36,727 bases of DNA, from the NCBI RefSeq assembly GCF_003612125.1, contig NZ_RAWI01000048.1, positions 1-36,727 of the forward strand. Direction: 5' to 3'. The position numbers and the translations under genes are program-made. Source of the DNA: Corallococcus praedator (GTDB lineage Bacteria; Myxococcota; Myxococcia; Myxococcales; Myxococcaceae). The notes beneath the pieces are model-generated. The model did not search any database. It was not told the DNA's origin and saw nothing but the letters and a program-made list of their open reading frames with translations. The first letter of the stretch is position 1. Every line of letters begins with the position of its first letter. This document shows, piece after piece, positions 2,705 through 28,587 of this stretch.

Positions 2705-3598
2705 ATGTCCATCGTCATCAACACCCCGAATGGCAACATCGGTCGTCCCCTCGTCGAGAAGCTCCTGAAGGCCGGCCGTCAGGTGACCCTCATCAGCCGC
2801 AACCCGGAGAAGGTGGCGGACCTGGTGAAGCAGGGCGCGAAGCTGGTGCAGGGCTCCATCGACGAGAAGGCCACGCTGGACGCGGCCCTCCAGGGCGCGG
2901 AGGCGCTGTTCTGGCTGTCGCCGCCGCTGGCCCGTCCGGACTTCATCACCTGGGCGCAGGACGCGGGCAAGCAGGCCGCGGCGCTGGTGAAGGCGCACGG
3001 CGTGAAGCGCGTGGTGGTGCTCTCCAGCGTGGGCGCGCAGACCGGCCCCGGCACCGGCCCGGTGTCCGTGCTCAAGCCGGTGGAGGAGGCCTTCAAGGCC
3101 GCGGCCCCCCACGTCACCAGCCTGCGCGCGGGCTTCTTCATGGAGAACCTGCTGCGGGACGTGCAGGGCATCGCGCACGCGGGCGCCCTCTACACCGCCA
3201 CGCCGCCGGACAAGGCCTTCCCGATGGTGGCCGTGGCGGACATCGCCAGCAAGGCGGCCGAGGTCCTGCTCGACGCGTCGTGGACGGGCCACCGGAACCT
3301 GGGCGTCCACGGCCCCAAGGACCTCACCTATGCGGAGGTGGCCACCATCCTCACGCAGTCGCTGGGCCGGCCCGTGAAGCATGTGCAGGTGCGGGTCGCG
3401 GACCTGCACAGCGGGATGACGAACGCGGGCGTGCCGACGTGGATGGCGGACGCGTTCGCGGAGATGTACCAGGCCCTCGTGGACGGGCGCATGGACCCGG
3501 CCGAGCCCCGCTCCAAGGACACCACCACGCCCACCACGCTGGCGCAGTTCGCGAGCACGGTGCTCAAGCCGGTGGTGGAGCAGGCGCGCCCGTCGTAG
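2705..3598 (+). CDS. NmrA-like NAD(P)-binding (atypical SDR) protein
   Basis: A 297-residue atypical short-chain dehydrogenase of the NmrA/NAD(P)H-binding group, which includes NADPH-sensing regulators and quinone/azo reductase-like enzymes. The N-terminal nucleotide-binding loop reads NTPNGNIGRPLVEKLL, a variant of the GxxGxxG motif. The second strand ends LISRNPEKV, where an arginine suits NADP. VVVLSSVGAQTG near residues 100-112 replaces the classical YxxxK active site, which is usual for this subgroup. C-terminal segments match the ligand-pocket half. It starts after a good ribosome binding site and is divergent from lysR, so it is the likely regulatory target. The substrate is unknown. 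Confidence 0.82.
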   Translation: MSIVINTPNGNIGRPLVEKLLKAGRQVTLISRNPEKVADLVKQGAKLVQGSIDEKATLDAALQGAEALFWLSPPLARPDFITWAQDAGKQAAALVKAHGVKRVVVLSSVGAQTGPGTGPVSVLKPVEEAFKAAAPHVTSLRAGFFMENLLRDVQGIAHAGALYTATPPDKAFPMVAVADIASKAAEVLLDASWTGHRNLGVHGPKDLTYAEVATILTQSLGRPVKHVQVRVADLHSGMTNAGVPTWMADAFAEMYQALVDGRMDPAEPRSKDTTTPTTLAQFASTVLKPVVEQARPS

Positions 3599-3678
3599 GC
3601 GAGGACGGGCACGGGGCACGCCCGGGCACGGCGTGACTGGGTGCGACCTGACCGGTCCTGTCTGGGATGCGGGGCAGT

Positions 3679-3698
3679 GGATCCAATGGGTTGGATCC
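3679..3698. terminator. hairpin downstream of the NmrA-like gene
   Basis: Arms GGATCCAA and TTGGATCC form a perfect 8-bp stem with a TGGG loop, 80 bases after the stop codon. There is no T tract, so it could be an operator instead. Confidence 0.35.
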
Positions 3699-3726
3699 TG
3701 GCCCGGCGCTTGCGAGAGGCGCGGGT

Positions 3727-3754
3727 CGTGAGCCGCCTTTGGTGGCGGCTCGCG
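3727..3754 (+). terminator. GC-rich hairpin, probable terminator
   Basis: Arms CGTGAGCCGCC and GGCGGCTCGCG form an 11-bp stem with one T-G wobble and a TTTGGT loop. A 12-bp direct repeat flanks it. There is no T tract after it. Confidence 0.4.
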
Positions 3755-3881
3755 GGCCCGGCGCTTCGCGGCATGGACGGCTCCCGCTGGACGGGGGGGC
3801 CGCCAGGGCCGGGCCGTGGCGCTCAACACCATCCCATCCGGCATCGGCCTGGCCGACGCTGGACCGACAGGCGTGCTCGAC

Positions 3882-6800
3882 ATGAGAAGACCGGTGGCCG
3901 TAGGGCTGTGCCTCCTGCTGGGGCTGACGGCGTGCGACAGCGCGGCGCCTCCCGCGCGAGAGGGGGCGGGAGTCACTTCGGAATCACGGCTCGGTGGGAA
4001 CCCGGGGGAGGTGGCGGCCCGGAGCGCGGCGGTGCTCGCGTGGCGGGAGGCGCCTTCGGAGGCCCGGGCCCGCGCGCTGGCGCATGCGTACTTCCCGGAG
4101 TGGACGCCGACGGCCGGCGGTGATGATTCGCTGCCGAAAGGGGTGGATGCGGCGCTGAGCGTGCGCGTCCCCGGGACGGCGACGGGCACGCTGGAGGTGA
4201 GCACCCGGGGAATGACGTTCCGGGTGCGGCGCCATGCGGCACAAGGGCAGGGCGCGCAGGCGAAGGTGCTCGGAGACGCACGGCACTTCTGGGCACCCGT
4301 GGGCGCGCGGACGGTGGATGGCGCGGGCCGGTGGGTGACGTCCCGCGTGGAGGAGTACGACGTGGCGCCGGAAGGGGCCTCCGAGCACCGCGTGCGCTAC
4401 ACGGTGGAGGTGCCCGAGGGCATCGTCGCGGTGCGCGACCTGGGCGAGTACCTGGAGTTCGTGGACGCGCACGACGTTCCCCGACTGCGCATGCATTCGT
4501 TGGTGGCGCGGGACGCGGAGGGCCTGAGCCGCGACGGTGAGGTCCGGCTGCACGGCGCGGTGCGGGCGCCGGGGACGGGACCCGCGAGATACGGCCTGTC
4601 GGGCCGCAGCCTGGACGTGGCCATGGTCGTGGATCTGCGCGGGATGCAGGGGCCCGTGGTGGTGGATCCGGGGTGGTCGTCCACTGGCTCCATGGCCCTG
4701 GCCCATCGGTACCACACCGCGACGCTGCTGCCGTCGGGGAAGGTGCTGGTGGCGGGCGGCCTGGTGCCTACGGCGGGATACACCCGCGTCGCGGAGCTGT
4801 TTGATCCGCTGACAGGGACCTGGAAGGGCGTCGCGCCCATGGCGGAGGCACGTGCTCAGCACACCGCGACGTTGCTCGGCTCGGGGCGACTTCTCATCGT
4901 GGGTGGAACTCGTTCAGGTTCGGTGCTGTCCACGGCGGAGCTGTTCGACCCGGAGACCGAGACGTGGAGTCCTGCGGATGTCCTGACCACCGCACGCGTG
5001 CTCCACACCGCGACCCTGCTGCGTGACGGTCGGGTCCTGGTCACCGGAGGCCAGGGCCTCGCGAGCGAACCTCTCGTCTCCTCGGAGGTGTTCGATCCCG
5101 CGACCGGAAGCTGGAGTCCCGCGGGAGCAATGTCCGCGGCTCGGGTGGAGGCGACCGCGACGTTGCTGCCGTCAGGGAAGGTCCTGGTCGCGGGCGGGAG
5201 CGTCAGCACCGCGGTGACCGAGCTGTTCGATCCCGCGACGAGGCAATGGACTGAGACAGGCGCGATGGTGAGCTCTCGACAGGCGCACTCCGCGACGCTT
5301 CTTCCGGATGGGAGGGTCCTGGTCGCGGGAGGCACCTCGTCGGGCGGGTACAGCCAGTCGATCGCCACGACAGAGCTCTATGATCCCATCACGGGACGCT
5401 GGAAGGCCACGGGGGGCATGGCCGTGGCCCACAAGTGGCACTCGGCTTCGCTGCTCCCGGATGGAACCGTGCTGGTGACGGGCGGAGCCTCTGGTGCGTC
5501 CAGCGGCTGGGCTCTTGGTACGGCCGTTGCCGAACTCTATCTGCCCTCCACTGGAACCTGGCAGTCCGCCGGAACGCTCCAGACCGCCCGCGGCAATCAC
5601 ACGGCGACCCTGCTGCCCTCGGGGCGGGTGTTGATCGCGGGTGGATATGTCCTGACAACCAACACGGCTGAAGCCAACTACGTGAACAGCCCGGAGGTGG
5701 TGGAGTTCTCAGGACGGTGGACCCCTGAGGTTCCGGCAAATACGCCGCGCGTCGATCACACCACCACGCTGCTGCCCACCGGACAACTCCTCGTCACAGG
5801 CGGTCGGAACACCACGGGAACCCTCGCGACCGCGGAACTTCATGACCGCGCGGGTGGGCACGGGCCTGGCACCAGCTTCATGCTCTTGCCTCGTGCTCGG
5901 CACACGGCCACGTTGCTGGCCTCGGGTCGGGTGCTCGTCACGGGAGGAACGGATGGCAATGCACCCGTGGCGGAAGCGGAGCTGTACGATCCCGCGCCTG
6001 GTCAGTGGTTGCCCGCGGGACGGATGTCCGTGGAGCGCGTCGGGCATACCGCGACCCTGCTGCCCTCCGGCAGGGTGCTGGTGACGGGTGGCTCAAGCTT
6101 CTACGGCGTCCAGTCCAGCGTGGAGGTCTTCGATCCTCGCAGCATGATGTGGATCGCGGCGACCCCCATGGCTTCACCGCGCGTCTCGCACGTCGCCACG
6201 CTGCTGCCTTCCGGCAAGGTGCTGGTGACGGGCGGCAACAACGGCAACACACCGCTCAACACCGCGCAGGTCTATGACCCGAACACGGACACATGGGGCG
6301 CGCTGCTGACCATGACCTCCACCCGGGAGGAACACACCGCGACAGTTCTCTCCTCCGGCAAGGTGCTGCTCGTGGGCGGACTCACCACGGGCGGAATGGC
6401 GACCTCCGAAGTGGAGCAGTACGACCCGGTGGTGAACACCTGGGCCCGGCTGACCCGACTCGGTGTTCCCCGCGCGGGCCATACCGCGACGCTGCTTGCC
6501 TCAGGGGATGTCGTCATCACCGGAGGGCAAAGCGGGGCGGACAGCTACTACAACAGTGTCGAGCGCTTCGAGGCTTCAACGGCCACCTGGGCCTATCTGG
6601 CCCCCATGGTGGCCGCGCGCACCGGCCACACCGCCACGCTGATGCCCACGGGTGAAGTCCTGGTGTCGGGCGGACGCAGCAGCACGGTTCAAGCCGCCGT
6701 CGAGTCCTTCGACCCCGTGTCCGCGCTCGCCTCCGCGCGGCCCACGCTGGACACGCCGCGCATCCTGTCGCCCGGTGCTTCGTTCATCGCCACGGGCACC

Positions 6801-8291
6801 CGCCTGCGAGGCGTCTCGGATGGCGGCAGCGGGGGCTACCATTCCTCGTCCAGCGAAGCGCCCCTGGTCCGGCTGGTGAACGTGGAGAGCGGCGCCATCT
6901 CCTGGGTGAAGAACGTCACCGCGTGGCAGGACGGCAAGCAGTTCTCCGCCCGGGCTCCCACCGTCGCGGCCGGACAGTACCTGCTGCTCGTCACCGTCCA
7001 GGGCATCACCGGAGGCCGCATGGTGCGCGTCACGGAGGACAACGCCGTCCCCATCGCGCTCAACACCACCGTCTCCACGCCGAAGAACACGCCCGTCGCC
7101 GTCACCCTGTCCGGGACGGACGCGGACTCGGACTCACTGGCGTATTCCATCGCCCAGAACCCCCAGCATGGGACTGTCTCCGGCGCGGGCGCGTTCCTCG
7201 TCTACACGCCCGCCACCGGCTACAGCGGCCTGGACACGTTCAGCTTCCGCGTGAACGACGGCGTCGCGGACTCCAGCGCGGGCACCGTCACCCTCCGGGT
7301 GAACAACGCCATCCCCGTGGCACTGGCGGTCTCCGTCACGACCTCCAAGGCGAAGCCGGTGCAGGTGACGCTCGCCGGGCTGGACGGAGATCAGGATCCG
7401 CTCACGTTCCGCCTCATCACCCAGCCCCTGCGCGGCACGCTGTCCGGCAGCGCGCCGCACCTGACGTACACGCCCAACGCGGGATACGTCGGCACGGACT
7501 CCTTCACCTACCGCGCGAGCGATGGCTCCACGGAGTCCTGGCCCGTCCCGGTCACCCTGAGCACCGTGAACCTGACGCCCGTCGCCCGGAGCGCCACGCT
7601 GACCACGGTGGTGGGGCAGGGCGTGCCCTTCACGTTGGAGGCCACCGACGCGGACGGAGACGCGCTGACGTACGCCGTGGTGCAGGCGCCCCAGCACGGC
7701 ACGCTGTCCGGCACCGCGCCCCACCTCATCTACACGCCGCAGTGGGGCTACGAAGGCCCGGACACCTTCAGCTTCCGCGCGAATGACGGCACGACGAACT
7801 CCAACCTCGCCACCGTCACCACCACCGTCGCGGCGCAGGTGCCCCATGCGCCCTCCGTCCCCATGCTCCGCACGCCGGGCGACAACACCGTGCTGGGCAC
7901 GGGCGACGTCACCTTCACCTGGGACGCGTCCACGGATCCGGAAGGGGATGCCCTCACCTACCGCCTGGAGCTGAGCCGCGACGGGGCCGTGCTCGCTTCG
8001 CTCAACGCCGCCGGCACGTCCCTCACGCTGCCGGGTTCGCTGTCGCCGGGCACGTACACGTGGCGCGTGGAGGCGGTGGACTCACAGGGGCACCGTGGCG
8101 GCTTCTCCGCGCCTGCGTCGTTCACCGTGTCCACCATGGCCTTGTGGCGCACCTCGGGCGGCCAGGGCCTCCAGGAAGACGATGCGTCAGGCGGCCTTGC
8201 CTGCTCCTCGGGTGGCAGCTCCGGCTGGGCGCCGTGGCTGGGCACGCTCGTCCTGCTCGCGCTGACCTTCCGGCGCCGCCTCGCCCGCTGA
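3882..8291 (+). CDS. Kelch-repeat and cadherin-like repeat lipoprotein with a MYXO-CTERM-like tail
   Basis: A 1469-residue exported protein. A lipoprotein signal (MRRPVAVGLCLLLGLTAC, lipobox LTAC, Cys18) fixes the ATG at 3882 rather than 3816. Residues 20-270 are an unrecognised domain. From about 275 to 915 I count 14 Kelch-type repeats of the form HTATLLPSGKVLVAGG followed by a variable Y/FDP...W segment, enough for two beta-propellers. Residues 1056-1316 hold three cadherin/Big-like repeats (YTPxxGYxGxDxFxF), and about 1321-1417 a fibronectin-III-like domain. The tail has CSSGG, a hydrophobic segment and RRRLAR, like the MYXO-CTERM sorting signal. Likely a surface adhesion or scaffold protein. 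Having both a lipobox and a C-terminal anchor is odd. Confidence 0.85.
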   Translation: MRRPVAVGLCLLLGLTACDSAAPPAREGAGVTSESRLGGNPGEVAARSAAVLAWREAPSEARARALAHAYFPEWTPTAGGDDSLPKGVDAALSVRVPGTATGTLEVSTRGMTFRVRRHAAQGQGAQAKVLGDARHFWAPVGARTVDGAGRWVTSRVEEYDVAPEGASEHRVRYTVEVPEGIVAVRDLGEYLEFVDAHDVPRLRMHSLVARDAEGLSRDGEVRLHGAVRAPGTGPARYGLSGRSLDVAMVVDLRGMQGPVVVDPGWSSTGSMALAHRYHTATLLPSGKVLVAGGLVPTAGYTRVAELFDPLTGTWKGVAPMAEARAQHTATLLGSGRLLIVGGTRSGSVLSTAELFDPETETWSPADVLTTARVLHTATLLRDGRVLVTGGQGLASEPLVSSEVFDPATGSWSPAGAMSAARVEATATLLPSGKVLVAGGSVSTAVTELFDPATRQWTETGAMVSSRQAHSATLLPDGRVLVAGGTSSGGYSQSIATTELYDPITGRWKATGGMAVAHKWHSASLLPDGTVLVTGGASGASSGWALGTAVAELYLPSTGTWQSAGTLQTARGNHTATLLPSGRVLIAGGYVLTTNTAEANYVNSPEVVEFSGRWTPEVPANTPRVDHTTTLLPTGQLLVTGGRNTTGTLATAELHDRAGGHGPGTSFMLLPRARHTATLLASGRVLVTGGTDGNAPVAEAELYDPAPGQWLPAGRMSVERVGHTATLLPSGRVLVTGGSSFYGVQSSVEVFDPRSMMWIAATPMASPRVSHVATLLPSGKVLVTGGNNGNTPLNTAQVYDPNTDTWGALLTMTSTREEHTATVLSSGKVLLVGGLTTGGMATSEVEQYDPVVNTWARLTRLGVPRAGHTATLLASGDVVITGGQSGADSYYNSVERFEASTATWAYLAPMVAARTGHTATLMPTGEVLVSGGRSSTVQAAVESFDPVSALASARPTLDTPRILSPGASFIATGTRLRGVSDGGSGGYHSSSSEAPLVRLVNVESGAISWVKNVTAWQDGKQFSARAPTVAAGQYLLLVTVQGITGGRMVRVTEDNAVPIALNTTVSTPKNTPVAVTLSGTDADSDSLAYSIAQNPQHGTVSGAGAFLVYTPATGYSGLDTFSFRVNDGVADSSAGTVTLRVNNAIPVALAVSVTTSKAKPVQVTLAGLDGDQDPLTFRLITQPLRGTLSGSAPHLTYTPNAGYVGTDSFTYRASDGSTESWPVPVTLSTVNLTPVARSATLTTVVGQGVPFTLEATDADGDALTYAVVQAPQHGTLSGTAPHLIYTPQWGYEGPDTFSFRANDGTTNSNLATVTTTVAAQVPHAPSVPMLRTPGDNTVLGTGDVTFTWDASTDPEGDALTYRLELSRDGAVLASLNAAGTSLTLPGSLSPGTYTWRVEAVDSQGHRGGFSAPASFTVSTMALWRTSGGQGLQEDDASGGLACSSGGSSGWAPWLGTLVLLALTFRRRLAR

Positions 8292-12980: not shown

Positions 12981-14669
12981 TCAGAGGTCGATTTCGTACT
13001 TCTGACAGTATTGTCGGACCTTGGGACGCTCCGTTGCCGGCACCCGGGTCCATGAGGCCCGCGTATTCGCCAGATCATGCTGCTGGCAGTACACGCGGGT
13101 GAGCAGCGAGAACGACGCGCCGGTGATCTTCGTGCGCTGGCTGCGGCGGATGTGACGCAGTGCTTCTTCCAGGTTGCCCGCGTCCAGCGCGCGCTGCGCC
13201 GCGGTCAGGTCCTCGCGGACGCTGTCGGGAAGCTTCTCCACGGTCTGGGACGCAGCGGGCGGCTGGCCGCGCACCCCCTTGGTCTTGGTGCCCACGGCCG
13301 GGTCGGGCGTGTCCGTCACCGGGGGCTCGGTAGGCGACGGATCCGCGTCCGGAACCGGCGTGGTCGAATGCTCGGGGTCCGCGACCGGCTTCTTCAGTTC
13401 CGGGGGCGCGGTGACCACGGCGACGGGCGGCGTGACGGCCACGGGGGGCGTCTGCACGGTGGCCGGCACGATGACGGGCGCGGTCGTGCCCGCGCCGCGC
13501 CAGAAGAAGGCGGTGGTGAAGGCCGCGATGACCACGATGCCCACGGCCACGCCCACCAGCCACTTCGGCCGGGCGCGGGTGAGCGGCTGCGCGGCCAGCG
13601 ACTCCGTGCGGGGGCCCTGTGCTTGCGAGGACGCGTCCTGCCCGGCGTGGGGGCGCATGCCCACGGTGGGCACGTGCTCCTGCGACGGGGGCATCGGCGT
13701 GGGCGACCGCGACGGCGCGGTGGACACGGGGGCCGCGGTCTTCACGCGCGCGGGCTTCGCTTCCGTCAGCGTCTGGAGCGGGCTGCCCGTCAGGGCCAGG
13801 ATGAACGCGCCCACGTCCGGGAAGCGGTCCGCGGGGAGCTTGGCCATCGCGCGGTTGATGGCTGTCACCACGTGCGGGGGCGTGTTCGGCGCCAGCGTCA
13901 GCAGCGGCGCGGGCTCCAGGTGGACGATTTGATAGATGAGCTCCGCGATGTTGTCGCCGGAGTAGGGCGGCTGGCCGGCGAGCATCTCGTAGACCATGCA
14001 GCCGAACGAGAAGAGGTCCGTCCTCGCGTCCACGTCGCTGTTGCGGCCCATGGCCTGCTCGGGCGCCATGTACTGCGGCGTCCCCATCAGCACCGAGTCC
14101 AGCGTCTGCACCGTGCGCGAGTCGACGAGCTTGGAGATGCCGAAGTCGAGCAGCTTCACGCGCTCGCTCACCACGCCGCCCGCTTCGGTCGGCACGAGGA
14201 ACACGTTGCCCGGCTTCAGGTCGCGGTGCACCACGCCCGCGCGGTGCGCCGCCTGGAGCGCCGCGCCCATCTGACGGGAGATGGAGAAGACCTCCTCCAG
14301 CGGAAGCTGCTTCTGCTTGCGCAGCCGGCGCGACAGGCCCTCGCCGCGCAGGTACTCCATCACCATGAAGGGCGTGCCGTCCTCCAGGGTGTCGAAGTCC
14401 AGCACCTCCACGATGTTGGGGTGGCCCAGCCGGGAGGCGATCTCCGCCTCGCGCCGGAAGCGCACCGCCACCTCCGGCGACAGCTCCTCCGTGCCGTGCA
14501 GCACCTTGATGGCCACCTGCTTGCCCGGCAGGCGCAGGTGACGGGCCAGGAAGACCGCGCCCATCCCGCCCTTGCCCAGGACGGTGCCGATCTCATAGGT
14601 GGCGTTCAGGATCCGCCCCGTGGTGAGGGGCTCGGACTGGACGGAGGTGGGTTCGGTCGGCTTTTGCAT
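12981..14669 (-). CDS. Hanks-type Ser/Thr protein kinase with one transmembrane segment
   Basis: A 562-residue receptor-like kinase. Its kinase domain spans about residues 25-290 and looks intact: P-loop LGKGGMGAVF (31-40), VAIK lysine K55, catalytic loop HRDLKPGNVF (148-157, D150), DFG at 175-177 and APE at 202-204. A Pro/Ser/Thr-rich juxtamembrane linker leads to one membrane helix at about 369-389. After it come a Val/Thr/Pro-rich extracytoplasmic linker and a C-terminal helical, TPR-like segment (from about 490, LDAGNLEEALRHI). There are no PASTA repeats, so the ligand is unlikely to be peptidoglycan of the PknB type. An AGGAA-type site precedes the ATG. It is first of a three-gene minus-strand run with a lipoprotein and a secreted protein. 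Confidence 0.92.
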   Translation of the reverse strand: MQKPTEPTSVQSEPLTTGRILNATYEIGTVLGKGGMGAVFLARHLRLPGKQVAIKVLHGTEELSPEVAVRFRREAEIASRLGHPNIVEVLDFDTLEDGTPFMVMEYLRGEGLSRRLRKQKQLPLEEVFSISRQMGAALQAAHRAGVVHRDLKPGNVFLVPTEAGGVVSERVKLLDFGISKLVDSRTVQTLDSVLMGTPQYMAPEQAMGRNSDVDARTDLFSFGCMVYEMLAGQPPYSGDNIAELIYQIVHLEPAPLLTLAPNTPPHVVTAINRAMAKLPADRFPDVGAFILALTGSPLQTLTEAKPARVKTAAPVSTAPSRSPTPMPPSQEHVPTVGMRPHAGQDASSQAQGPRTESLAAQPLTRARPKWLVGVAVGIVVIAAFTTAFFWRGAGTTAPVIVPATVQTPPVAVTPPVAVVTAPPELKKPVADPEHSTTPVPDADPSPTEPPVTDTPDPAVGTKTKGVRGQPPAASQTVEKLPDSVREDLTAAQRALDAGNLEEALRHIRRSQRTKITGASFSLLTRVYCQQHDLANTRASWTRVPATERPKVRQYCQKYEIDL

Positions 14670-14854
14670 CGGCGGTTCTTTTTCCTACTAAACCGGGCCG
14701 ACATGATTGGAAAGCACCTGGGTCGAATCCTCCCCATCAGGTCGTGTGCGTGGATCCGGATTCGCAGGTTCTGAGAGGGCAAGCCGCCTTTTCCCAAAGC
14801 CTGTGCGCGCCGTGTCTGGGCCTGCCCGGGAGCAGGAGGCTTCTGAAGCACGGC

Positions 14855-14896
14855 GAGCCCCGCTGGAGGCTCCCGGGGGAGGCTCCAGCGGGGCTC
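14855..14896 (-). terminator. 42-nt near-perfect hairpin after the DUF4142 gene
   Basis: A 14-bp outer stem (GAGCCCCGCTGGAG with CTCCAGCGGGGCTC), a single G-G mismatch and an inner CTCCC/GGGAG stem around GG give 19 of 20 possible pairs. It begins 38 bases after the DUF4142 stop on the minus strand and has no T tract. It should isolate that gene from the kinase operon. Confidence 0.6.
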
Positions 14897-14933
14897 ATGG
14901 ATGGGACGTGTTTCGTGCGCCGTGGGGGGAGGC

Positions 14934-15545
14934 CTACGGGACGGGCAGCAGCCGCGTCTGGATCTCCTCGGCTTCCTGGATGTGAAGCTGGACCTGCTGC
15001 CGCTCGGTCTGGAGCTCCTGGACCAGGGCCGGCAGGGTGACCTGGGGCGTCAGGAGGCTGTCGCCGACGAAGGCGGTGCGCGCGTGCGCGTTGAGCTGCG
15101 CGCTCATCAGCGCCAGGTCGAACGCGGCGCCCTGGGGCGCATCCGGGCCCTGGAGGATCTCCAGCATCTGCTTCACTTCATCCTGCAGTTGGAGGCTCAG
15201 CGGGCTGTCCTCGGGCGTGATGCCCTGGCTTTGCAGCAACGCGTCCAGCCGCTGCCGCGCGGCGGTGTGCTCGGTGACCATGGCGTTGTTGAAGTCGCGC
15301 ACGGCGGGGTCGGTGGCGAGGGGCCCGCCGAAGGTTCCGAGCATCACCTCGCCTTCGTTCGCCACCTGCAGCACGCGGGCGATCTGCGCGTCGGTGAGCG
15401 TCACCACCGTGCCGGCGTCCGCGACGATCTCGAGCTCGGGCGGAGGATTGCCGCCGTTGTCATCGGCGTCGGAACTGCACGCCGCGCTGCCCAGCACCAT
15501 CGCACCCGCCAATACCGCGCCCAACCAGTACCCTGCCAATCGCAT
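14934..15545 (-). CDS. DUF4142 family lipoprotein
   Basis: A 203-residue lipoprotein. The signal is MRLAGYWLGAVLAGAMVLGSAAC with lipobox SAAC (Cys23), followed by SSDADDNGG, a flexible acidic linker. The rest matches the DUF4142 (ferritin-like, putative outer-membrane) family: DAQIARVLQVANEGEVMLG, then AVRDFNNAMVTEHTAARQRL, the expected helical pattern with the conserved F-x-x-x-M-x-x-E/D-H segment, and a final long helix. AAGGAG lies nine bases before the ATG at 15545. The function of DUF4142 is unknown; some members are linked to envelope stress. It is divergent from the helicase gene across a palindrome-rich 199-bp gap. Confidence 0.85.
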   Translation of the reverse strand: MRLAGYWLGAVLAGAMVLGSAACSSDADDNGGNPPPELEIVADAGTVVTLTDAQIARVLQVANEGEVMLGTFGGPLATDPAVRDFNNAMVTEHTAARQRLDALLQSQGITPEDSPLSLQLQDEVKQMLEILQGPDAPQGAAFDLALMSAQLNAHARTAFVGDSLLTPQVTLPALVQELQTERQQVQLHIQEAEEIQTRLLPVP

Positions 15546-15587
15546 GAGGCCCGCTCCTTCTGAGGATTGAGCACGCAGGGTGGGGAC

Positions 15588-15695
15588 CGCCTCGCGAGGC
15601 GACCATCAGCGGCCCAGCCGATGCCACTGTGGAGCAGTCCACAGCCCCGGGGACGGCCGGCAGGTCGCCTGCCGCCAGCGAAGCGGTCCCGGGAC
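15588..15695. promoter_or_regulatory. cluster of five palindromes or inverted repeats
   Basis: Five perfect symmetric elements lie in 108 bp of the divergent DUF4142/helicase gap. They are CGCCTCGCGAGGCG (15588-15601), CTGTGGA-GCAG-TCCACAG (15627-15644), CCCCGGGG (15645-15652), CGGCAGG-TCG-CCTGCCG (15658-15674) and GTCCCGGGAC (15686-15695). They may be operators for one or more dimeric regulators or structured RNA; no coding capacity explains them. Confidence 0.5.
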
Positions 15696-15744
15696 GCGCG
15701 ATTTTCACGGCGAGCTGGGGCGCCAACCCCTAGAGTCGCCCTCG

Positions 15745-18306
15745 ATGAGTGCCCCTGAAGACACCCGCGCCCCGCTCGCCGCCCTGTTGCCGAAGCCCGG
15801 CGAGCCTCCCCTCGACGCCGATGAGATCCTCAATCGCTTCGTCGGTTACGTGGCCACCAACGGGTTGAGCCTGTACTCCGCCCAGGAGGAGGCCATCCTG
15901 GAGCTCTTGAGCGACAAGCACCTGTTCCTCAAGACCCCCACCGGCTCCGGCAAGTCGCTGGTGGCCATGGCGCTGCACTTCAAGTCCATGGCCGAGGGCA
16001 AGGTGTCGTTCTACACGTGCCCCATCAAGGCGCTGGTGAACGAGAAGTTCTTCCAGCTCTCCAAGGCCTTCGGCCCGGAGAACGTGGGCATGCTGACGGG
16101 CGACGCGAGCATCAACCGCGAAGCGCCCATCCTCTGCTGCACGGCCGAAATCCTGGCGAACCTCGCGCTGCGCGACGCCTCCGCGCGCGTGGACGCAGTG
16201 GTGATGGATGAGTTCCATTACTACTCCGACAAGGAGCGCGGTACGGCCTGGCAGATTCCGCTGCTGGCGCTGCCGAAGACGCAGTTCCTGCTGATGTCCG
16301 CGACGTTGGGCGACACGCACATCATCGAGCAGAGCCTGGAGCAGCTCACCGGCCGCGAGGTGGCCACGGTGCGAAGCTCCGAGCGCCCCGTGCCGCTGGA
16401 CTTCGACTACCGCGAGGCGGCGCTGCACGAGACCATCCAGGACCTCATCGCGCGCGGGAAGTACCCCATCTACCTGGTGAACTTCACGCAGCGCGCCGCG
16501 GCCGAGCAGGCGCAAAATCTGATGTCGGTGGACTTCAACACCAAGGAGGAGAAGGAGGAGCTGCGCCAGGCGTTGATGGACGCGCCCTTCGACACGCCCT
16601 ACGGCAAGGACTTCCAGCGCTTCCTGCGCCACGGCATCGGGATGCACCACGCGGGCCTCTTGCCCAAGTACCGACTGCTGGTGGAGAAGCTGGCGCAGCA
16701 GGGCCTGCTCAAGGTCATCAGCGGCACGGACACGCTGGGCGTGGGCGTGAACATCCCCATCCGCACGGTGCTCTTCACGCAGCTGTTCAAGTTCAACGGC
16801 GAGAAGCTGACGACGCTGAGCGTGCGCGACTTCAAGCAGATTTCCGGACGCGCGGGCCGCAAGGGCTTCGACACCGAGGGCAGCGTGGTGGCGCAGGCGC
16901 CCGAGTACGTGGTGGAGAACATCAAGCAGGCGGCCAAGGAGGCCGCGGGCAAGAAGAAGACGCCCAAGGCGAAGCCGCCGCAGAAGGGCTTCGTGCAGTA
17001 CGACAAGAGCACCTTCGAGCGGCTCCAGAACGGCATGCCGGAGCCCCTGGAGTCCCGCTTCGAGGTGAGCCACGGCCTGCTGCTCAACCTGCTCCAGAGC
17101 GACAAGACGGAGGGCAGCGGCGGCTACAAGCGGCTGGTGCAGCTGGTGCGCCGCTCGCACAGCTCCGAGTACACGAAGAAGAAGCTCCTGAAGGACGCGG
17201 CGATGTACTTCCGCACCCTGCGCGAGGCGGGCATCGTGCAGGTGGTGCAGTGGGAGGGCCGCTCCTCCACGGTGGAGGTGGCGGGCGAGCTGCAGCGCGA
17301 CTTCAGCCTCAACCACACGCTGTCGCTGTACCTGCACGAGACGCTGGAGCTGCTGGATCCGGCGGTGGAGACGTACGCGCTGGACGTCGTCACGCTGGTG
17401 GAGTCCATCCTGGAGAACCCTGACGTGGTGCTCTACGCGCAGCTGCACCAGCTCAAGGGCGAGAAGATCCAGGAGATGAAGGCGCAGGGCATGGAGTACG
17501 ACGACCGGATGGAGGAGCTGGAGAAGCTGGAGTGGCACAAGCCCAACCGCGACTTCGTCTACGGCACCTTCAACGCCTTCGCGCGCAAGCACCCGTGGGT
17601 GGGCGAGGAGAACATCCGCCCCAAGTCCATCGTGCGCGACATGTTCGAGCGCTTCATGTCCTTCCACGACTACGTGCGGGAGTACGGCCTGCAGCGCAGC
17701 GAGGGCGTGCTGCTGCGCTACGTGGGGGACGTCTACAAGTCGCTGACGCAGACGGTGCCGGAGCGCTTCCGCAACGAGGAGGTGGACGACATCATCGACC
17801 ACCTGCGCGCGACGCTGCGTCAGGTGGACTCCAGCCTCCTGGACGAGTGGGAGCGGATGAAGAACCCGGGCGCGCCCATCGAGGCGAAGCCGGTGGTGGA
17901 CCTGAAGCCCAAGGAGCTCACCGAGGACCCGAAGGCCTTCGCCGCGCGCGTGCGCGAGGAGCTGCACCGGCTGCTGCGCGCCCTGGGCCAGCGCCGCTAC
18001 CTGGACGCGCTGGGCATGCTGGACAACGCCCTGGGCGAGTGGACCGCGCCGAAGCTGGAGCAGGCGATGGCGCCGTACTTCGAGGAGCACAAGCTGGTGG
18101 TGCTCACGCCCCAGGCGCGAAAGCCGGCCAACACCCAGCTCAAGGAGGCCGGCACCCGTCAGTGGGAGGCCCAGCAGCGCATCATGGACCCGGAGGGCCA
18201 TGGGGACTGGGTCATCGACGCGGAGATCGACTTGCGCGGCCGCCGCATGGACGACGGCCCCATCCTGATGCTGCGCCGCATTGGCGGCATGAGCGCGTGG
18301 ACCTGA
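15745..18306 (+). CDS. SKI2-like DEAD/DEAH-box helicase with a DUF3516-type C-terminus
   Basis: An 853-residue superfamily 2 helicase, probably acting on RNA. Motif Q-like SLYSAQEEAILEL is followed by Walker A TPTGSGKS (about residues 59-66), a DEFHYY motif II in place of DEVH, motif III SATL, and motif VI QISGRAGRKG near residue 370. The C-terminal part matches the DUF3516 helical region of the Ski2/Mtr4-like bacterial group found in actinobacteria and myxobacteria. ATG at 15745 is chosen because homology begins there; the open frame upstream crosses the palindrome cluster and looks non-coding. There is no Shine-Dalgarno, but TAGAGT lies eight bases upstream. The stop falls in the first unit of an 8-bp tandem repeat that has stops in all three frames. 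Confidence 0.9.
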   Translation: MSAPEDTRAPLAALLPKPGEPPLDADEILNRFVGYVATNGLSLYSAQEEAILELLSDKHLFLKTPTGSGKSLVAMALHFKSMAEGKVSFYTCPIKALVNEKFFQLSKAFGPENVGMLTGDASINREAPILCCTAEILANLALRDASARVDAVVMDEFHYYSDKERGTAWQIPLLALPKTQFLLMSATLGDTHIIEQSLEQLTGREVATVRSSERPVPLDFDYREAALHETIQDLIARGKYPIYLVNFTQRAAAEQAQNLMSVDFNTKEEKEELRQALMDAPFDTPYGKDFQRFLRHGIGMHHAGLLPKYRLLVEKLAQQGLLKVISGTDTLGVGVNIPIRTVLFTQLFKFNGEKLTTLSVRDFKQISGRAGRKGFDTEGSVVAQAPEYVVENIKQAAKEAAGKKKTPKAKPPQKGFVQYDKSTFERLQNGMPEPLESRFEVSHGLLLNLLQSDKTEGSGGYKRLVQLVRRSHSSEYTKKKLLKDAAMYFRTLREAGIVQVVQWEGRSSTVEVAGELQRDFSLNHTLSLYLHETLELLDPAVETYALDVVTLVESILENPDVVLYAQLHQLKGEKIQEMKAQGMEYDDRMEELEKLEWHKPNRDFVYGTFNAFARKHPWVGEENIRPKSIVRDMFERFMSFHDYVREYGLQRSEGVLLRYVGDVYKSLTQTVPERFRNEEVDDIIDHLRATLRQVDSSLLDEWERMKNPGAPIEAKPVVDLKPKELTEDPKAFAARVREELHRLLRALGQRRYLDALGMLDNALGEWTAPKLEQAMAPYFEEHKLVVLTPQARKPANTQLKEAGTRQWEAQQRIMDPEGHGDWVIDAEIDLRGRRMDDGPILMLRRIGGMSAWT

Positions 18307-21442: not shown

Positions 21443-22393
21443 CTAGGGCGCGGGGGCCTTCTGGAACATCTCCGCGAGGATGTGCTCGGCCGCGTCCGCG
21501 AGCAGATCCCGGGCCATGCGCGTCTCCTCGCCGAAGATGCCGGTGGACGTGCGCGCATCCAGCACGTGCGTCGCGAGCAGCGAGAACGCCGCGGCCTCGT
21601 CGAACGTCGCCTCGGAGGAGAGGACGCGCTTGCCGGGATGGGGCTCTTCCTCGTGGAAGCGGCCCTCCCAGTTCTCGCCCAGGGTGACGGCGAAGTACTG
21701 CGTCGCCACGTTGCCGGGCCGCGACATGTGCGAGGCGGCGACCACCGCCCGGAGCTGGTCGCGCTCGTCGGGCGTCATCTGCCGTTTCCACCCCTCGACC
21801 GCGGCGTGCATCGTTTCAAGTTGATCCCTCGCCGCGGCCTCCGCGTTCTTCATCAGGTCCGGCACCTGGGCGTGGATGAACGCGGAGAGGTCCTCCTGCG
21901 CCACGCGGTTCGCGGCCAGCACGGCCTCCACGAGCGCGAGCGACGCGTCCAGCACGCGGTGCTGCCGGGCCAGGTGCTCGGCCGGAAGTCCCCGCGAATC
22001 GAAGCTGCCACGCACCTGGGTGATGAGCCCGCGCAGGGTGGCGAGCCGGACGCGGGTGTCCTCGTCGAGCGCCTGCTTCAGCGGGGCCAGGAGCACGTGG
22101 AGCGCGAGCGGGACGTGGGTGACGACCTTGTAGACGTGGTAGCGGCGCGTGCGCGCGGGGGCCTCGAAGCGCTGGCCGCCCTTGCGCAGGATGAGCAGGT
22201 CGTCGATCTGCGCGATGACCGGGCCCATGCGCGACAGCACCGCTTCGCGGCGCGCGGCGTACGCGTCCCGGAACGCCTGGTTGAGCACGGAGAGCGGATC
22301 CGTGGGCTCCAGCGCCACGGTGCGCGCGACCTCGGAGGGCGGCTCGGGAGGAGGGGAAGGGGAGGAAGGGCCTGCTACGGGGCACTCGGCCAT
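21443..22393 (-). CDS. hypothetical helical protein
   Basis: A 316-residue protein that I do not recognise. It has no signal peptide or membrane helix. After a Pro/Ser-rich N-terminus (residues 5-25) it appears almost wholly alpha-helical, with stretches such as AFRDAYAARREAVLSRMGPV and repeated charged heptad-like segments; it may form a helical bundle. The C-terminus (ATFDEAAAFSLLATHVLDAR) is also helical. ATG at 22393 has TAGCGT seven bases upstream and no Shine-Dalgarno. It lies 150 bp after the M6 protease gene, with a terminator-like hairpin in between, so the two are probably separate units. Confidence 0.75.
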   Translation of the reverse strand: MAECPVAGPSSPSPPPEPPSEVARTVALEPTDPLSVLNQAFRDAYAARREAVLSRMGPVIAQIDDLLILRKGGQRFEAPARTRRYHVYKVVTHVPLALHVLLAPLKQALDEDTRVRLATLRGLITQVRGSFDSRGLPAEHLARQHRVLDASLALVEAVLAANRVAQEDLSAFIHAQVPDLMKNAEAAARDQLETMHAAVEGWKRQMTPDERDQLRAVVAASHMSRPGNVATQYFAVTLGENWEGRFHEEEPHPGKRVLSSEATFDEAAAFSLLATHVLDARTSTGIFGEETRMARDLLADAAEHILAEMFQKAPAP

Positions 22394-22400
22394 GGCGCGC

Positions 22401-22406
22401 ACGCTA
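22401..22406 (-). promoter_or_regulatory. possible -10 element of the helical-protein gene
   Basis: TAGCGT on the minus strand, then GCGCGCC, then ATG. It has the TANNNT-N7-start layout; no clear -35 is visible. Confidence 0.3.
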
Positions 22407-22485
22407 GCGCCCCTGGAATGCCCTCGGAGCCGGAGCTGGAACCGGGTGTCGGGATTCCTGCAACCGCGTCCCCTCCATGCGACGA

Positions 22486-22517
22486 AGGCCGGCCCCGCGT
22501 GGATGCGGGACCGGCCT
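22486..22517 (-). terminator. terminator of the M6 protease gene
   Basis: AGGCCGGCCCCGC and GCGGGACCGGCCT form a 13-bp stem with one C-A mismatch and a GTGGAT loop, 26 bases past the stop on the minus strand. TTCGTC follows, a weak T tract. Confidence 0.5.
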
Positions 22518-22543
22518 CCAGGTTCAGACGTTCAACGGTTGCT

Positions 22544-24892
22544 TCAGTCGACCGGACGCACCTGCACCTGCATCACGGTCCCGGCCTTGTTCTCGCTGAG
22601 GACCTCGATGATGGTGCCCGTGGGGGGGACCTTCACGCCGGCGTACGGCTGCGTGGCGTACCAGAAGGTGTTCAGGTCGTTGAACACCGGCACGGCAGGC
22701 TGCGAGACGTAGTCGCTGCGCGGGAAGCCACTGGGCTTGAGCGACAGCGGGAAGCTGGGCTGCAGGCCGAAGGTGGCATCGTGCGTCTGCACGCGGCCGG
22801 ACCAGTAGCGGCCGTCGCTGCGCTGCAGGGGCTGCGGGCGCGAGTCGATGGGCAGGATGCGGCCCTCGCCCGGGTGCACGGACACGCGGTTGTCCGGCAC
22901 GGACGTGTCCCAGTACGTGATCAGCAGACCGGGGTTGTAGGCGTAGCGCTCGGCGTAGTCGATGAGGCCTTCCGCGCTGAAGCCGAAGTTGTACGGACCG
23001 GTCTCCAGGCCCGTGTCGTAGCCACGGAACTGACGCCACTCGGCCAGGTAGTAGTTGTCGTAGTAGGTGTTGGCGCCGTCGTTCAGGAAGAACGTGGCCT
23101 GATCCCAGTACTTGTCGCCGTTCTCCGCGTCGTCGCCGAAGACGTACTTGTTCTTCGCCCACAGCTGGAAGCCGTCCACCAGGAAGCCCCGGCCGAACTC
23201 CGCGCCGTCCGTCTTGTAGCGGATCTTCAGCGTGACCTTCTTGCCCGCGTGCGCGGACAGGTCGAACGACAGCGGCACCCAGCCGTCGGACAGGCCGGTG
23301 ATGCCGTTGCCCAGGTTGTTGCCCCACGGATCCGACGTGCGGCTCACGGCGCTGGGCAGGTTGACGAACGGACCGTCCTCCACCGCGAGCGCGACGTAGG
23401 CGTAGTCCCAGTCCTCCTCGATGTCGAACCACGTGGAGAACGTGAACGTGATGGGCGTCTTGTTCGGCAGCTTCACCGTCTTGACGAGCACGCGGTCCAG
23501 GTTGTTGCCCGCGCCGCCCTGCCACGAGAACTGCCCTTCGATGGGCGCCACCGTGACCTGCGGACGGGGCTTCGCGGGCAGGTTCACCACCAGCGCCTGC
23601 TTCGCGTTCTGGGACGTCACGCCGGACGGGCCCAGCTTGTGGTACGAGTACAGGCCGTGCGTCGTGGTGGCGTGGTCCAGCCAGCCCAGCTGCAGCTTGT
23701 CCCAGGCGAAGAAGTCACCCGGCCGGCTGCCGATGTCCGTGGTGCCGTCGTTCAGGTACGAGCCCGAGGACATGATGGTCCAGAAGCCCGTCCCGTTGTC
23801 CGCCGCGTTCGTCGTGTCGTAGTGGTCCGGCAGACCCAGGTCGTGGCCGAACTCGTGCGCGAACACGCCCAGGCCGCCGTTCTCCGGCTGGATGGTGTAG
23901 TCGCCCACCCACTTGTCCACGTTCGTGGCGAAGCGGGTGCCGCCGTTCGGGTTGTACGCGGGGCCCGTGCCGTCCGCGCTCAGGCCCGTGCTGTAGGCGA
24001 ACCAACGGTGGCTCCACACCGCGTTGGGGCCCTGCGCGCCGCCGCCCGTCTCCTCGCCCACGCCCGCGTGGACGATCTGGAAGTGGTCGATGTAGCCGTC
24101 CGGCTCGTCGAAGTTGCCGTCGCCGTCGTAGTCATACCGATCCCACGTGTCGAACGTGTCCAGGTACGCCTTGATCTCCGCGGGCGTCTTGCCAGCGGCC
24201 ACCTGGCCCTGCGTCCACACCTTGATGGCGTCGCTGATGAGCGGCCACACGGAGTTGGAGCAGCTGGAGGAGCCGCACAGGTTGTTGCCGTAGCGCGCGG
24301 CGTTGTACGGCACGCGCACCCACTCGGACACCGCGCCGTTGACCGTGTAGCGGCCCGACGAGGCGGCCTTGTAGAAGTTCGCCACCGAGTCCGCGCCCGG
24401 CGTCGTGTCGAAGTAGAGCTTCTCGAAGTGCGCGCGGTCGTAGTCCGGCTGCCAGATGGTGGTGTTGTCCACCGTCCGGTCCGGCTCTTCAATCAGGTTG
24501 TGCACCGGGCCCGGCACGTTGCCGCCGGGGTTCGTGGCGGGGTTGCCGAACACCGGGTGGATCTGCGTTCCGTACTCCACCAGGATGACGAAGATGCGGT
24601 CCGTGCGCTCCAGCTCCAGCTCCACGAACTTGCCGTTGCCCAGCTTGTGCACCTTGCCGGCCTGACCACGGCCTTCGATGCGCTCCTGGAGGGCCTGGGC
24701 CTTCAGCTCCTTCTGCTGCTCGCCCAGACGGTGTGGCAGATCGTCCGAGATGTCCTCGGTGGCCTGCCTGCGCAGGCCCGCGGACGGCGGCGCGATGTCG
24801 GGTTGCGGCTTCTCGTACCAGGCACGCTCGGCGTACGCCGACGGGGCGATCGCGAGCAGGCTCCAGGCAAGCCATGACGGGGGTTTCCGCAT
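22544..24892 (-). CDS. secreted M6-family metalloprotease (immune inhibitor A type)
   Basis: A 782-residue zinc protease of family M6, related to Bacillus immune inhibitor A and Vibrio PrtV. A signal peptide MRKPPSWLAWSLLAIAPSAYA is followed by an N-terminal propeptide-like part (about residues 22-85). The catalytic domain carries HEFGHDLGLPDHYD, with H346, E347 and H350. After it come a long beta-sandwich region including a MAM/carbohydrate-binding-like segment (FSTWFDIEEDWDYAYV) and a C-terminal domain. The enzyme probably degrades proteins outside the cell, in keeping with predatory life. ATG at 24892 has AGGAG six bases upstream; a GTG at 24898 overlaps that site and is less likely. A small hairpin lies in its leader. 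Confidence 0.9.
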   Translation of the reverse strand: MRKPPSWLAWSLLAIAPSAYAERAWYEKPQPDIAPPSAGLRRQATEDISDDLPHRLGEQQKELKAQALQERIEGRGQAGKVHKLGNGKFVELELERTDRIFVILVEYGTQIHPVFGNPATNPGGNVPGPVHNLIEEPDRTVDNTTIWQPDYDRAHFEKLYFDTTPGADSVANFYKAASSGRYTVNGAVSEWVRVPYNAARYGNNLCGSSSCSNSVWPLISDAIKVWTQGQVAAGKTPAEIKAYLDTFDTWDRYDYDGDGNFDEPDGYIDHFQIVHAGVGEETGGGAQGPNAVWSHRWFAYSTGLSADGTGPAYNPNGGTRFATNVDKWVGDYTIQPENGGLGVFAHEFGHDLGLPDHYDTTNAADNGTGFWTIMSSGSYLNDGTTDIGSRPGDFFAWDKLQLGWLDHATTTHGLYSYHKLGPSGVTSQNAKQALVVNLPAKPRPQVTVAPIEGQFSWQGGAGNNLDRVLVKTVKLPNKTPITFTFSTWFDIEEDWDYAYVALAVEDGPFVNLPSAVSRTSDPWGNNLGNGITGLSDGWVPLSFDLSAHAGKKVTLKIRYKTDGAEFGRGFLVDGFQLWAKNKYVFGDDAENGDKYWDQATFFLNDGANTYYDNYYLAEWRQFRGYDTGLETGPYNFGFSAEGLIDYAERYAYNPGLLITYWDTSVPDNRVSVHPGEGRILPIDSRPQPLQRSDGRYWSGRVQTHDATFGLQPSFPLSLKPSGFPRSDYVSQPAVPVFNDLNTFWYATQPYAGVKVPPTGTIIEVLSENKAGTVMQVQVRPVD

Positions 24893-28513: not shown

Positions 28514-28587
28514 TGGGCAGCCTCCACCGCGCTGTGTCATAGGTCGGTGTGAGGTCAAACGATTATCTGATAGAGGACGGGGACTCC

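Follow-up and report, generated by a model that had tools for sequence, protein, structure and literature searches.

What purpose might a secreted protein serve by carrying a predicted lipid attachment site at one end and a sorting tail at the other? The question is raised by a gene for a 1469-residue Kelch protein in a stretch of DNA from Corallococcus praedator (contig NZ_RAWI01000048.1, positions 1 to 36,727; this whole stretch of 36,727 nucleotides is referred to as the window). An earlier note on this DNA had proposed that a lipobox and a MYXO-CTERM tail occur on this single protein and had regarded such a two-anchor design as unusual. Judged from sequence, the window protein is not a one-off and belongs to a class of long surface proteins that recurs among myxobacteria. 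Our preferred reading, to which we assign a rough probability of 0.55, is that it is a double-anchored surface protein in which both anchor cysteines are lipidated and which is delivered in the folded state by the type II secretion system (T2SS).

Both Ends of the Protein Carry Conserved Signals

The gene and the features at its two ends are as follows.

3882..8291, + strand: gene for the 1469-amino acid (aa) Kelch lipoprotein with a MYXO-CTERM tail, ATG start, stop codon at 8289-8291
3882..3932, + strand: predicted type II signal peptide, residues 1-17 (n-region MRRP, h-region VAVGLCLLLGL, lipobox LTA), from sequence and conservation
3933..3935, + strand: Cys18, predicted N-terminal lipidation site, with Asp19 at +2, both invariant in 4/4 sequences
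8187..8279, + strand: MYXO-CTERM tail, residues 1436-1466 (model match; TIGR03901 21.7 bits, TIGR03382 20.6 bits)
8202..8204, + strand: Cys1441, the signature cysteine of the tail, invariant in 4/4 sequences
8223..8288, + strand: hydrophobic segment (residues 1448-1463) followed by RRRLAR (1464-1469), from sequence and conservation

The N-terminus reads MRRPVAVGLCLLLGLTA followed by CDSAAPP, with the lipobox LTA directly before Cys18. The charged n-region, the hydrophobic stretch and the lipobox with Cys at +1 that characterize a lipoprotein are all present (judged by sequence, without SignalP), and LTAC matches the strict lipobox form [LVI][ASTVI][GAS]C. In all four aligned sequences, namely the window gene and three orthologues, ATG 3882 is the start and both Cys18 and the TA preceding it are invariant. 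An in-frame GTG lies upstream at 3816, but only two of the four sequences have a start codon at the aligned position, and the lipobox is retained even if the longer form from this GTG is used; in none of the orthologues does an alternative start remove the lipobox. The window protein has cysteines at residues 10, 18 and 1441 only. Cys10 lies within the signal peptide and the other two are the anchor cysteines, Cys1441 being the sole cysteine after Cys18.

The C-terminal tail, which reads ACSSGGSSGWAPWLGTLVLLALTFRRRLAR and contains Cys1441, passes both MYXO-CTERM models when the final 46 residues are scanned alone, with 21.7 bits for TIGR03901 (cut-off 20) and 20.6 bits for TIGR03382 (cut-off 15.85); an alternative cut of the tail gave 20.6 and 20.3 bits, respectively. 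Nothing above the cut-off of either model was found in 14 control genomes. The tail is absent from the listings of the whole-protein scan and of the own-genome searches and passes only as an isolated tail, so automatic annotation may miss it. The tail of the orthologue in genome G006 did appear in the genome search, at 16.6 bits.

Of 15 further genomes searched within the genus, three yielded an orthologue (E up to 1e-10; in most genomes, 43 candidates were scored), and the gene therefore looks accessory. They include ones from Corallococcus carmarthensis and a Myxococcaceae metagenome-assembled genome, with identities of 73–81% among the orthologues. The start, the lipobox, Asp at +2, the tail cysteine and RRR are retained in all three same-genus orthologues (G004, G006 and G007), so that the tail Cys and RRR are invariant in 4/4 sequences, and a more distant homologue in another genus (G030) likewise has both ends. 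An additional match in G018 is broken by a contig end, and its termini lie outside the comparison. The orthologues in G007 and G004 hold only the matching three cysteines, and that in G006 has one extra. Compared with the window gene, the three orthologues gave nonsynonymous-to-synonymous rate ratios (dN/dS) of 0, 0.25 and 0.25 over residues 1-18 of the signal peptide (on 1, 7 and 5 changes, respectively) and 0.26, 0.33 and 0.18 over tail residues 1440-1469. By these ratios, both ends are under purifying selection (0–0.25 for the signal peptide, 0.18–0.33 for the tail).

Lipoboxes Are Common in Long MYXO-CTERM Proteins

To place the window protein among its relatives, we assembled 153 MYXO-CTERM frames (TIGR03382, E up to 0.3) from six genomes of the family: 123 from five other genomes, 29 over the cut-off in the own genome, and the window protein, whose tail was missed by the survey searches and was added by hand. 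Tail counts are lower bounds, the first round of candidates having been capped in some genomes; from the 144 tails listed, the 20 of G009 and one G032 tail with an internal stop were left out. The gene caller and the lipobox rule were home-made, the latter resembling PROSITE PS00013. No signal peptide was called in 13 of the 153 frames, four of which are cut by a contig end (including C652 of the own genome, with a lipobox and no start), and three further contig-cut frames were retained in the count.

A lipobox was found in 31 of the 140 frames with a signal peptide: 5/26 in the own genome, 4/20 in G006, 9/27 in G022, 5/23 in G026, 7/28 in G030 and 1/16 in G032. The frames with a lipobox are much longer than the others, with median lengths of 1467 and 512 aa, respectively (Mann-Whitney, 1e-9). 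At 1000 aa or more, 26 of 48 frames have a lipobox, versus 5 of 92 below this length (Fisher, 1e-10), the latter figure being near chance. The two-anchor design is thus less unusual than the earlier note had supposed: among surveyed MYXO-CTERM proteins with a signal peptide, it is predicted for about one-fifth overall and for about half at lengths of at least 1000 aa.

One might suspect that long frames merely offer more chances for a false lipobox. This explanation is countered by a substitution control in which the Cys of the rule was swapped for a rare residue (H, M, W, Y, N, K or D), giving 0–3 of 48 matches in long frames and 1–3 of 92 in short ones, compared with 27 and 5 for Cys. In an earlier form of the control, counted over all 153 frames, matches numbered 31 for Cys, 50 for Ala, 30 for Gly, 28 for Pro, 26 for Ser, 25 for Gln, 23 for Val, 22 for Thr, 20 for Leu, 12 for Arg, 8 for Glu, 6 each for Phe and Asn, and 5 for Trp; because common residues also match often, the rare ones were taken as the fair comparators. 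The length dependence persists when proteins are collapsed into 73 orthologue groups, 46 of which are single proteins and one of which, a group of two, is a tie: a lipobox is found in 15 of 26 groups with a median of at least 1000 aa versus 2 of 47 shorter ones (Fisher, 5e-7). Orthologue links connect lipobox to lipobox in 16 cases and other to other in 102, with 6 mixed. Of the 31 lipobox calls, two (G022:4052798 and G022:10892342) are doubtful, and when these, the OmpA-ended proteins described below and the window protein are removed, 20 of 42 long and 2 of 89 short frames keep a lipobox.

The strict lipobox form accounts for 12 of 29 lipoboxes in this class, an equal share to the 43 of 102 in background lipoproteins from the same regions. 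Asp or Glu occupies +2 in 8/29 versus 9/102 of the background (Fisher, 0.02, ignoring the kinship of orthologues), Lys or Arg at +2 in 0/29 versus 13/102, and Ala at +7 in 1/29 versus 7/102. Asp at +2 as a class-wide mark of Lol avoidance was not adopted, as Asp itself occurs in just 3 of 29. Pfam scans of 12 of the 31 lipobox members returned Kelch, HYR, Big, DUF4215, HYDIN/ASH, PKD and one subtilase, and from these domains the class looks like large surface adhesins or binding proteins, plus one protease. An OmpA-type end after an internal tail motif was recognized by sequence pattern (Pfam-confirmed in L115 only) in 6 of the 31 lipobox frames and in none of the 109 others. The notion that OmpA-ended proteins are always lipoproteins was dropped, as C626 of the own genome, with a type I signal, may share this build (its C-terminal end lies beyond the fetched sequence).

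In other families, 41 frames from five genomes were examined of 53 tails in six genomes. A lipobox was called in 6 of the 34 frames with a signal peptide (491–1038 aa), at least one of these calls (L241) being doubtful, and the length rule was not visible in this small set.

Predicted Export Route and the Points Against It

The own genome encodes several of the processing and export components that a double-anchored protein would call upon. The myxosortase MrtX was matched by NF040593 at 451.5 bits (cut-off 180), the type II secretin GspD at 669 bits, and LspA by two matches over the cut-off (105.2 and 94.7 bits). At G000:C443:28458-30864, two tandem lspA-type matches are followed closely by the Lgt match, which scores below its cut-off.

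In the route that we propose, the protein would enter the Sec pathway through its type II signal peptide, Lgt would lipidate Cys18, and LspA would cut before this residue. Once translocation ends, the tail would span the membrane as a helix whose arginines lie in the cytoplasm; Cys1441 would be lipidated and MrtX would remove the helix. Finally, the T2SS would carry the folded protein to the surface, where it would be held at both ends. Lipidation of both cysteines, the final topology and a binding role are what we infer for the window protein.

Several parts of this route have precedents in Myxococcus xanthus. TraA and MXAN_4924 lose the tail to MrtX and need this cleavage for surface display, and in TraA the cleavage requires the tail cysteines; export of MYXO-CTERM proteins by the T2SS is cited there from earlier work (PMC11980579). 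The same source presents lipidation of the MYXO-CTERM cysteine as a proposal with Lgt as a leading candidate enzyme (Guo et al., PMC11980579).

A number of observations weigh against this reading. The only Lgt match in the own genome (106.8 bits, E 4e-30) is below the cut-off of 118.9. The window tail passes TIGR03901 by a narrow margin, and the G007 orthologue tail scores 19.5 on this model (cut-off 20), yet is over the cut-off of TIGR03382. In M. xanthus lipoproteins, Lys at +2 is reported to mark the inner membrane and Ala at +7 the matrix (PMC3222651); both marks are absent from the window protein, so its destination is not predicted by them.

A further point comes from secreted proteins without a tail in the same regions. 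For this background, 1138 genes were called and 1029 kept, with 27 tail-like ones dropped and 652 without an accepted signal excluded; the comparison is rough, since these genes had to pass tighter criteria for start and score than the MYXO-CTERM frames. A lipobox is present in 100 of 341 background proteins shorter than 1000 aa and in 2 of the 9 longer ones (Fisher, 1.0), or, with the border at 700 aa, in 84 of 306 below and 18 of 44 above. MYXO-CTERM proteins under 700 aa have a lipobox in 3 of 75 cases, which is below the background (Fisher, 2e-6). At 700 aa or more, the rates are 28/65 for MYXO-CTERM and 18/44 for background proteins (Fisher, 0.85), and at 1000 aa or more 26/48 and 2/9 (Fisher, 0.14). 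The contrast thus stems from short MYXO-CTERM proteins lacking lipoboxes, and the long ones are at or somewhat above the general rate. Because long MYXO-CTERM proteins show no clear excess of lipoboxes over the background, two anchors on one protein are not in themselves a sign that selection has favoured the combination. Short ones do without a lipobox, indicating that sorting as such does not require a second anchor.

Alternative Explanations

The alternative that survives best, which we nevertheless consider unlikely, is sequential use. The N-terminal lipid would serve at one stage and the tail at another, and the mature surface form would carry a single lipid after later loss of one anchor, for example through shedding close to the variable stretch that precedes the tail. 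In agreement with this explanation, residues 19-45 and 1419-1439 beside the anchors are the most variable of nine regions in the comparison with two of the three orthologues. It is countered by the conservation of both ends over orthologues that are 73–81% identical and by the recurrence of the pairing in many different long proteins.

An envelope-spanning tether seems to us improbable. Here, the Lol system would place the N-terminal lipid in the outer membrane's inner leaflet, the C-terminal end would stay in the inner membrane, and the protein itself would be periplasmic. Links across the envelope do occur in the class, as six of the long lipobox proteins surveyed have an internal MYXO-CTERM motif followed by a terminal OmpA-type part, and Cys18 is not followed by the Lys at +2 that marks the inner membrane (PMC3222651). 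The window protein itself has no OmpA match in the Pfam scan and the next gene encodes a protein of the acyl-CoA ligase/acetyltransferase type, and the MYXO-CTERM proteins tested so far reach the surface (PMC11980579).

It is slightly less probable still that the signal peptide is of type I and that Cys18 is a chance residue ending the hydrophobic stretch, which would make the window protein an ordinary single-anchor MYXO-CTERM protein. Lipoboxes are near chance in short MYXO-CTERM proteins, so the tail is usually paired with a type I signal. Against this stand TAC followed by D, invariant in 4/4 sequences, the stretch CDSAAPPAREG with no obvious AxA-type site, and the excess of Cys boxes far above rare-residue boxes in long MYXO-CTERM proteins. 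The least probable explanation, an ordinary outer-membrane lipoprotein with a decayed, non-functional tail, would fit the modest model scores but is countered by the retained Cys, hydrophobic stretch and Arg cluster, by the dN/dS of 0.18–0.33, and by five tails (window, three orthologues and G030) of which all five pass TIGR03382 and four pass TIGR03901.

Relation to Known Systems

The sequence bears out the earlier note's pairing of lipobox and tail on one protein. On this basis the window protein belongs to the MYXO-CTERM proteins and, independently, is a predicted lipoprotein, which would make it a variant class and not a new kind of system. With the myxosortase substrate TraA it shares the signature Cys, the hydrophobic helix, the Arg-rich end and an N-terminal signal peptide, as well as MrtX and the T2SS secretin in the genome. 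N-terminal signal peptides are found in all 35 MYXO-CTERM proteins of M. xanthus (PMC11980579). What sets the window protein apart is a signal peptide predicted to be of type II with a conserved lipobox, giving a second predicted lipid anchor; for the TraA paralogue MXAN_4924, whose architecture is very similar to that of TraA, a type I signal is stated (PMC3325183).

Pullulanase PulA of Klebsiella, a surface lipoprotein exported by the T2SS, resembles the window protein in having a lipobox, a large exported chain and a T2SS in the genome. Both have Asp at +2, and PulA is not known to have a C-terminal sorting tail. It is also cited as a parallel in PMC11980579.

A third comparison is MXAN_5598, an adhesin with an internal MYXO-CTERM motif, a beta-barrel and an OmpA part (PMC11980579). 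The window protein likewise has a large adhesin-like part ahead of the MYXO-CTERM motif, and six surveyed proteins of similar general build also have a lipobox; unlike MXAN_5598, the window protein lacks a barrel and an OmpA part and terminates in the tail. A literature search over titles and the opening lines of abstracts, which did not extend to Haft 2024, a possible place of mention, returned no description of a class with both lipobox and MYXO-CTERM tail.

Domain Architecture

Between the two ends, the protein is modular.

4017..4691, + strand: N-terminal region, residues 46-270, without a Pfam match and poorly modelled (mean predicted local distance difference test, pLDDT, mostly below 50)
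4692..6731, + strand: 14 Kelch units, residues ~271-950, forming two propellers in the model (~262-612 and ~622-950); Pfam, pattern and AlphaFold2
6732..7037, + strand: region after the propellers, residues 951-1052, without a Pfam match
7038..7832, + strand: three Big_9/cadherin-like (tandem-95) units, residues ~1053-1317; Pfam and profile scans
7899..8123, + strand: candidate FN3-like domain, residues 1340-1414; PF00041 E 3e-4, 21.4 bits, below the cut-off of 25

The earlier note had counted 14 Kelch units, enough for two seven-blade propellers, followed by three cadherin-like units and an FN3-like domain. Its repeat counts agree with ours. Kelch models are over the cut-off (Kelch_4, E 4e-89), 13 units fit a strict pattern at a spacing of 45–53 aa and the fourteenth, around residue 627, is off by one residue, while the orthologues P0003 and P0002 have 14 and 13 pattern matches, respectively; Big_9 matches over three stretches (E 5e-45). 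The FN3-like domain was located as a match, albeit one that falls short of the cut-off.

The propellers were examined in two AlphaFold2 models. The first, of residues 19-1060, was poor (pLDDT 53.3; predicted template modelling score, pTM, 0.40), and its top Foldseek matches were the Kelch domains of human KLHL17 and designed SAKe6 proteins, which we take to be six-bladed, with a galactose oxidase homologue at rank 32. The second, of residues 262-955 and built from three sequences, is of moderate confidence, with a pLDDT of 75.2 and a pTM of 0.53. In VIA-align 2, its first 16 rows were galactose-oxidase-type enzymes, presumably seven-bladed, with Z of 36.0–37.4 over 335–350 residues at a root-mean-square deviation of 2.4–2.7. 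Six-blade Kelch domains aligned with Z of about 27 within model residues 23-319 and one time within 361-661, and virginiamycin B lyase and Photorhabdus lectins aligned inside model residues 1-351 with Z of about 27–28.

Two propellers are therefore a well-supported prediction from the repeats and the second model. Seven blades in each is the simplest reading of the 14 units and the best matches, short of proof, given that six-blade Kelch domains also match well and were the best matches of the poorer model. The galactose-oxidase-type alignments run from model residue 1 to 686-692, and since alignments covering half of the model span its first to last residues, their ranges alone hint that an N-terminal strand may close the second propeller. 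Residues 951-1052 may resemble the domain that follows the propeller in galactose oxidases. The window protein shares Kelch repeats and the predicted propeller fold with the galactose oxidase family (GlxA, NF052501) and differs from it in having two predicted propellers. Identity as a galactose oxidase or GlxA enzyme was rejected, as the score on NF052501 is 131.2 bits (cut-off 800). Galactose oxidase has a Cys-Tyr cofactor, which cannot form in the window protein because there is no Cys between residues 18 and 1441.

Shorter Kelch Paralogues and Neighbouring Sequences

Shorter Kelch paralogues of ~1100–1230 aa with a lipobox and a MYXO-CTERM tail were seen within the loci L093:13822-18765, L176:6716-11874 and on C700 (L062) of the own genome. 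On L093 of G006, the orthologue of the window gene (2888-7288, - strand) and a shorter paralogue (13822-17118, + strand) lie ~6.5 kb apart on opposite strands. Barrel/OmpA-related sequence is found directly downstream of the shorter paralogue in G006, G030 and C700 (partly fetched), and in G022 (L115:6365-10939) the paralogue and the barrel/OmpA part are fused in a single 1525-aa frame with the tail internal and OmpA terminal. This arrangement resembles the TraA-TraB pairing and MXAN_5598. A barrel/OmpA partner gene was dropped as an explanation of the window protein, as its gene has no such downstream sequence.

Upstream of the start, a stretch at window positions 3824-3843, CAACACCATCCC(A/G)TC(C/T)GGCA, is near-identical across the four orthologous loci, more so than its flanks, and is possibly a regulatory element. 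Elsewhere in the window, 28549-30492 encodes a CotH kinase-type protein with a chitobiase C-terminal-like domain, and 21482-24877 holds a 1131-aa open reading frame that had no Pfam match at E 1e-6 and may or may not be a gene.

Implications for Surface Proteins of Myxobacteria

The length rule might plausibly be explained if an early N-terminal lipid holds a long modular protein at the membrane during its export, and if two lipids hold a large surface protein more firmly. More tentatively, and with rather less confidence than in the double anchoring itself, MYXO-CTERM proteins may fall into two classes: short ones with a C-terminal lipid only, and long modular ones lipidated at both ends that would form surface loops. 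One Lgt may serve both cysteines, because Guo et al. name it a leading candidate for the tail Cys. Two cysteines, one per anchor, would remain in the window protein after removal of the predicted signal peptide, which makes it a well-defined substrate with which to ask if lipids are attached to both, and by which enzyme. The length rule suggests that the combination of lipobox and tail is a property of a class, and from it one can predict the MYXO-CTERM proteins in which two sites should take up label.

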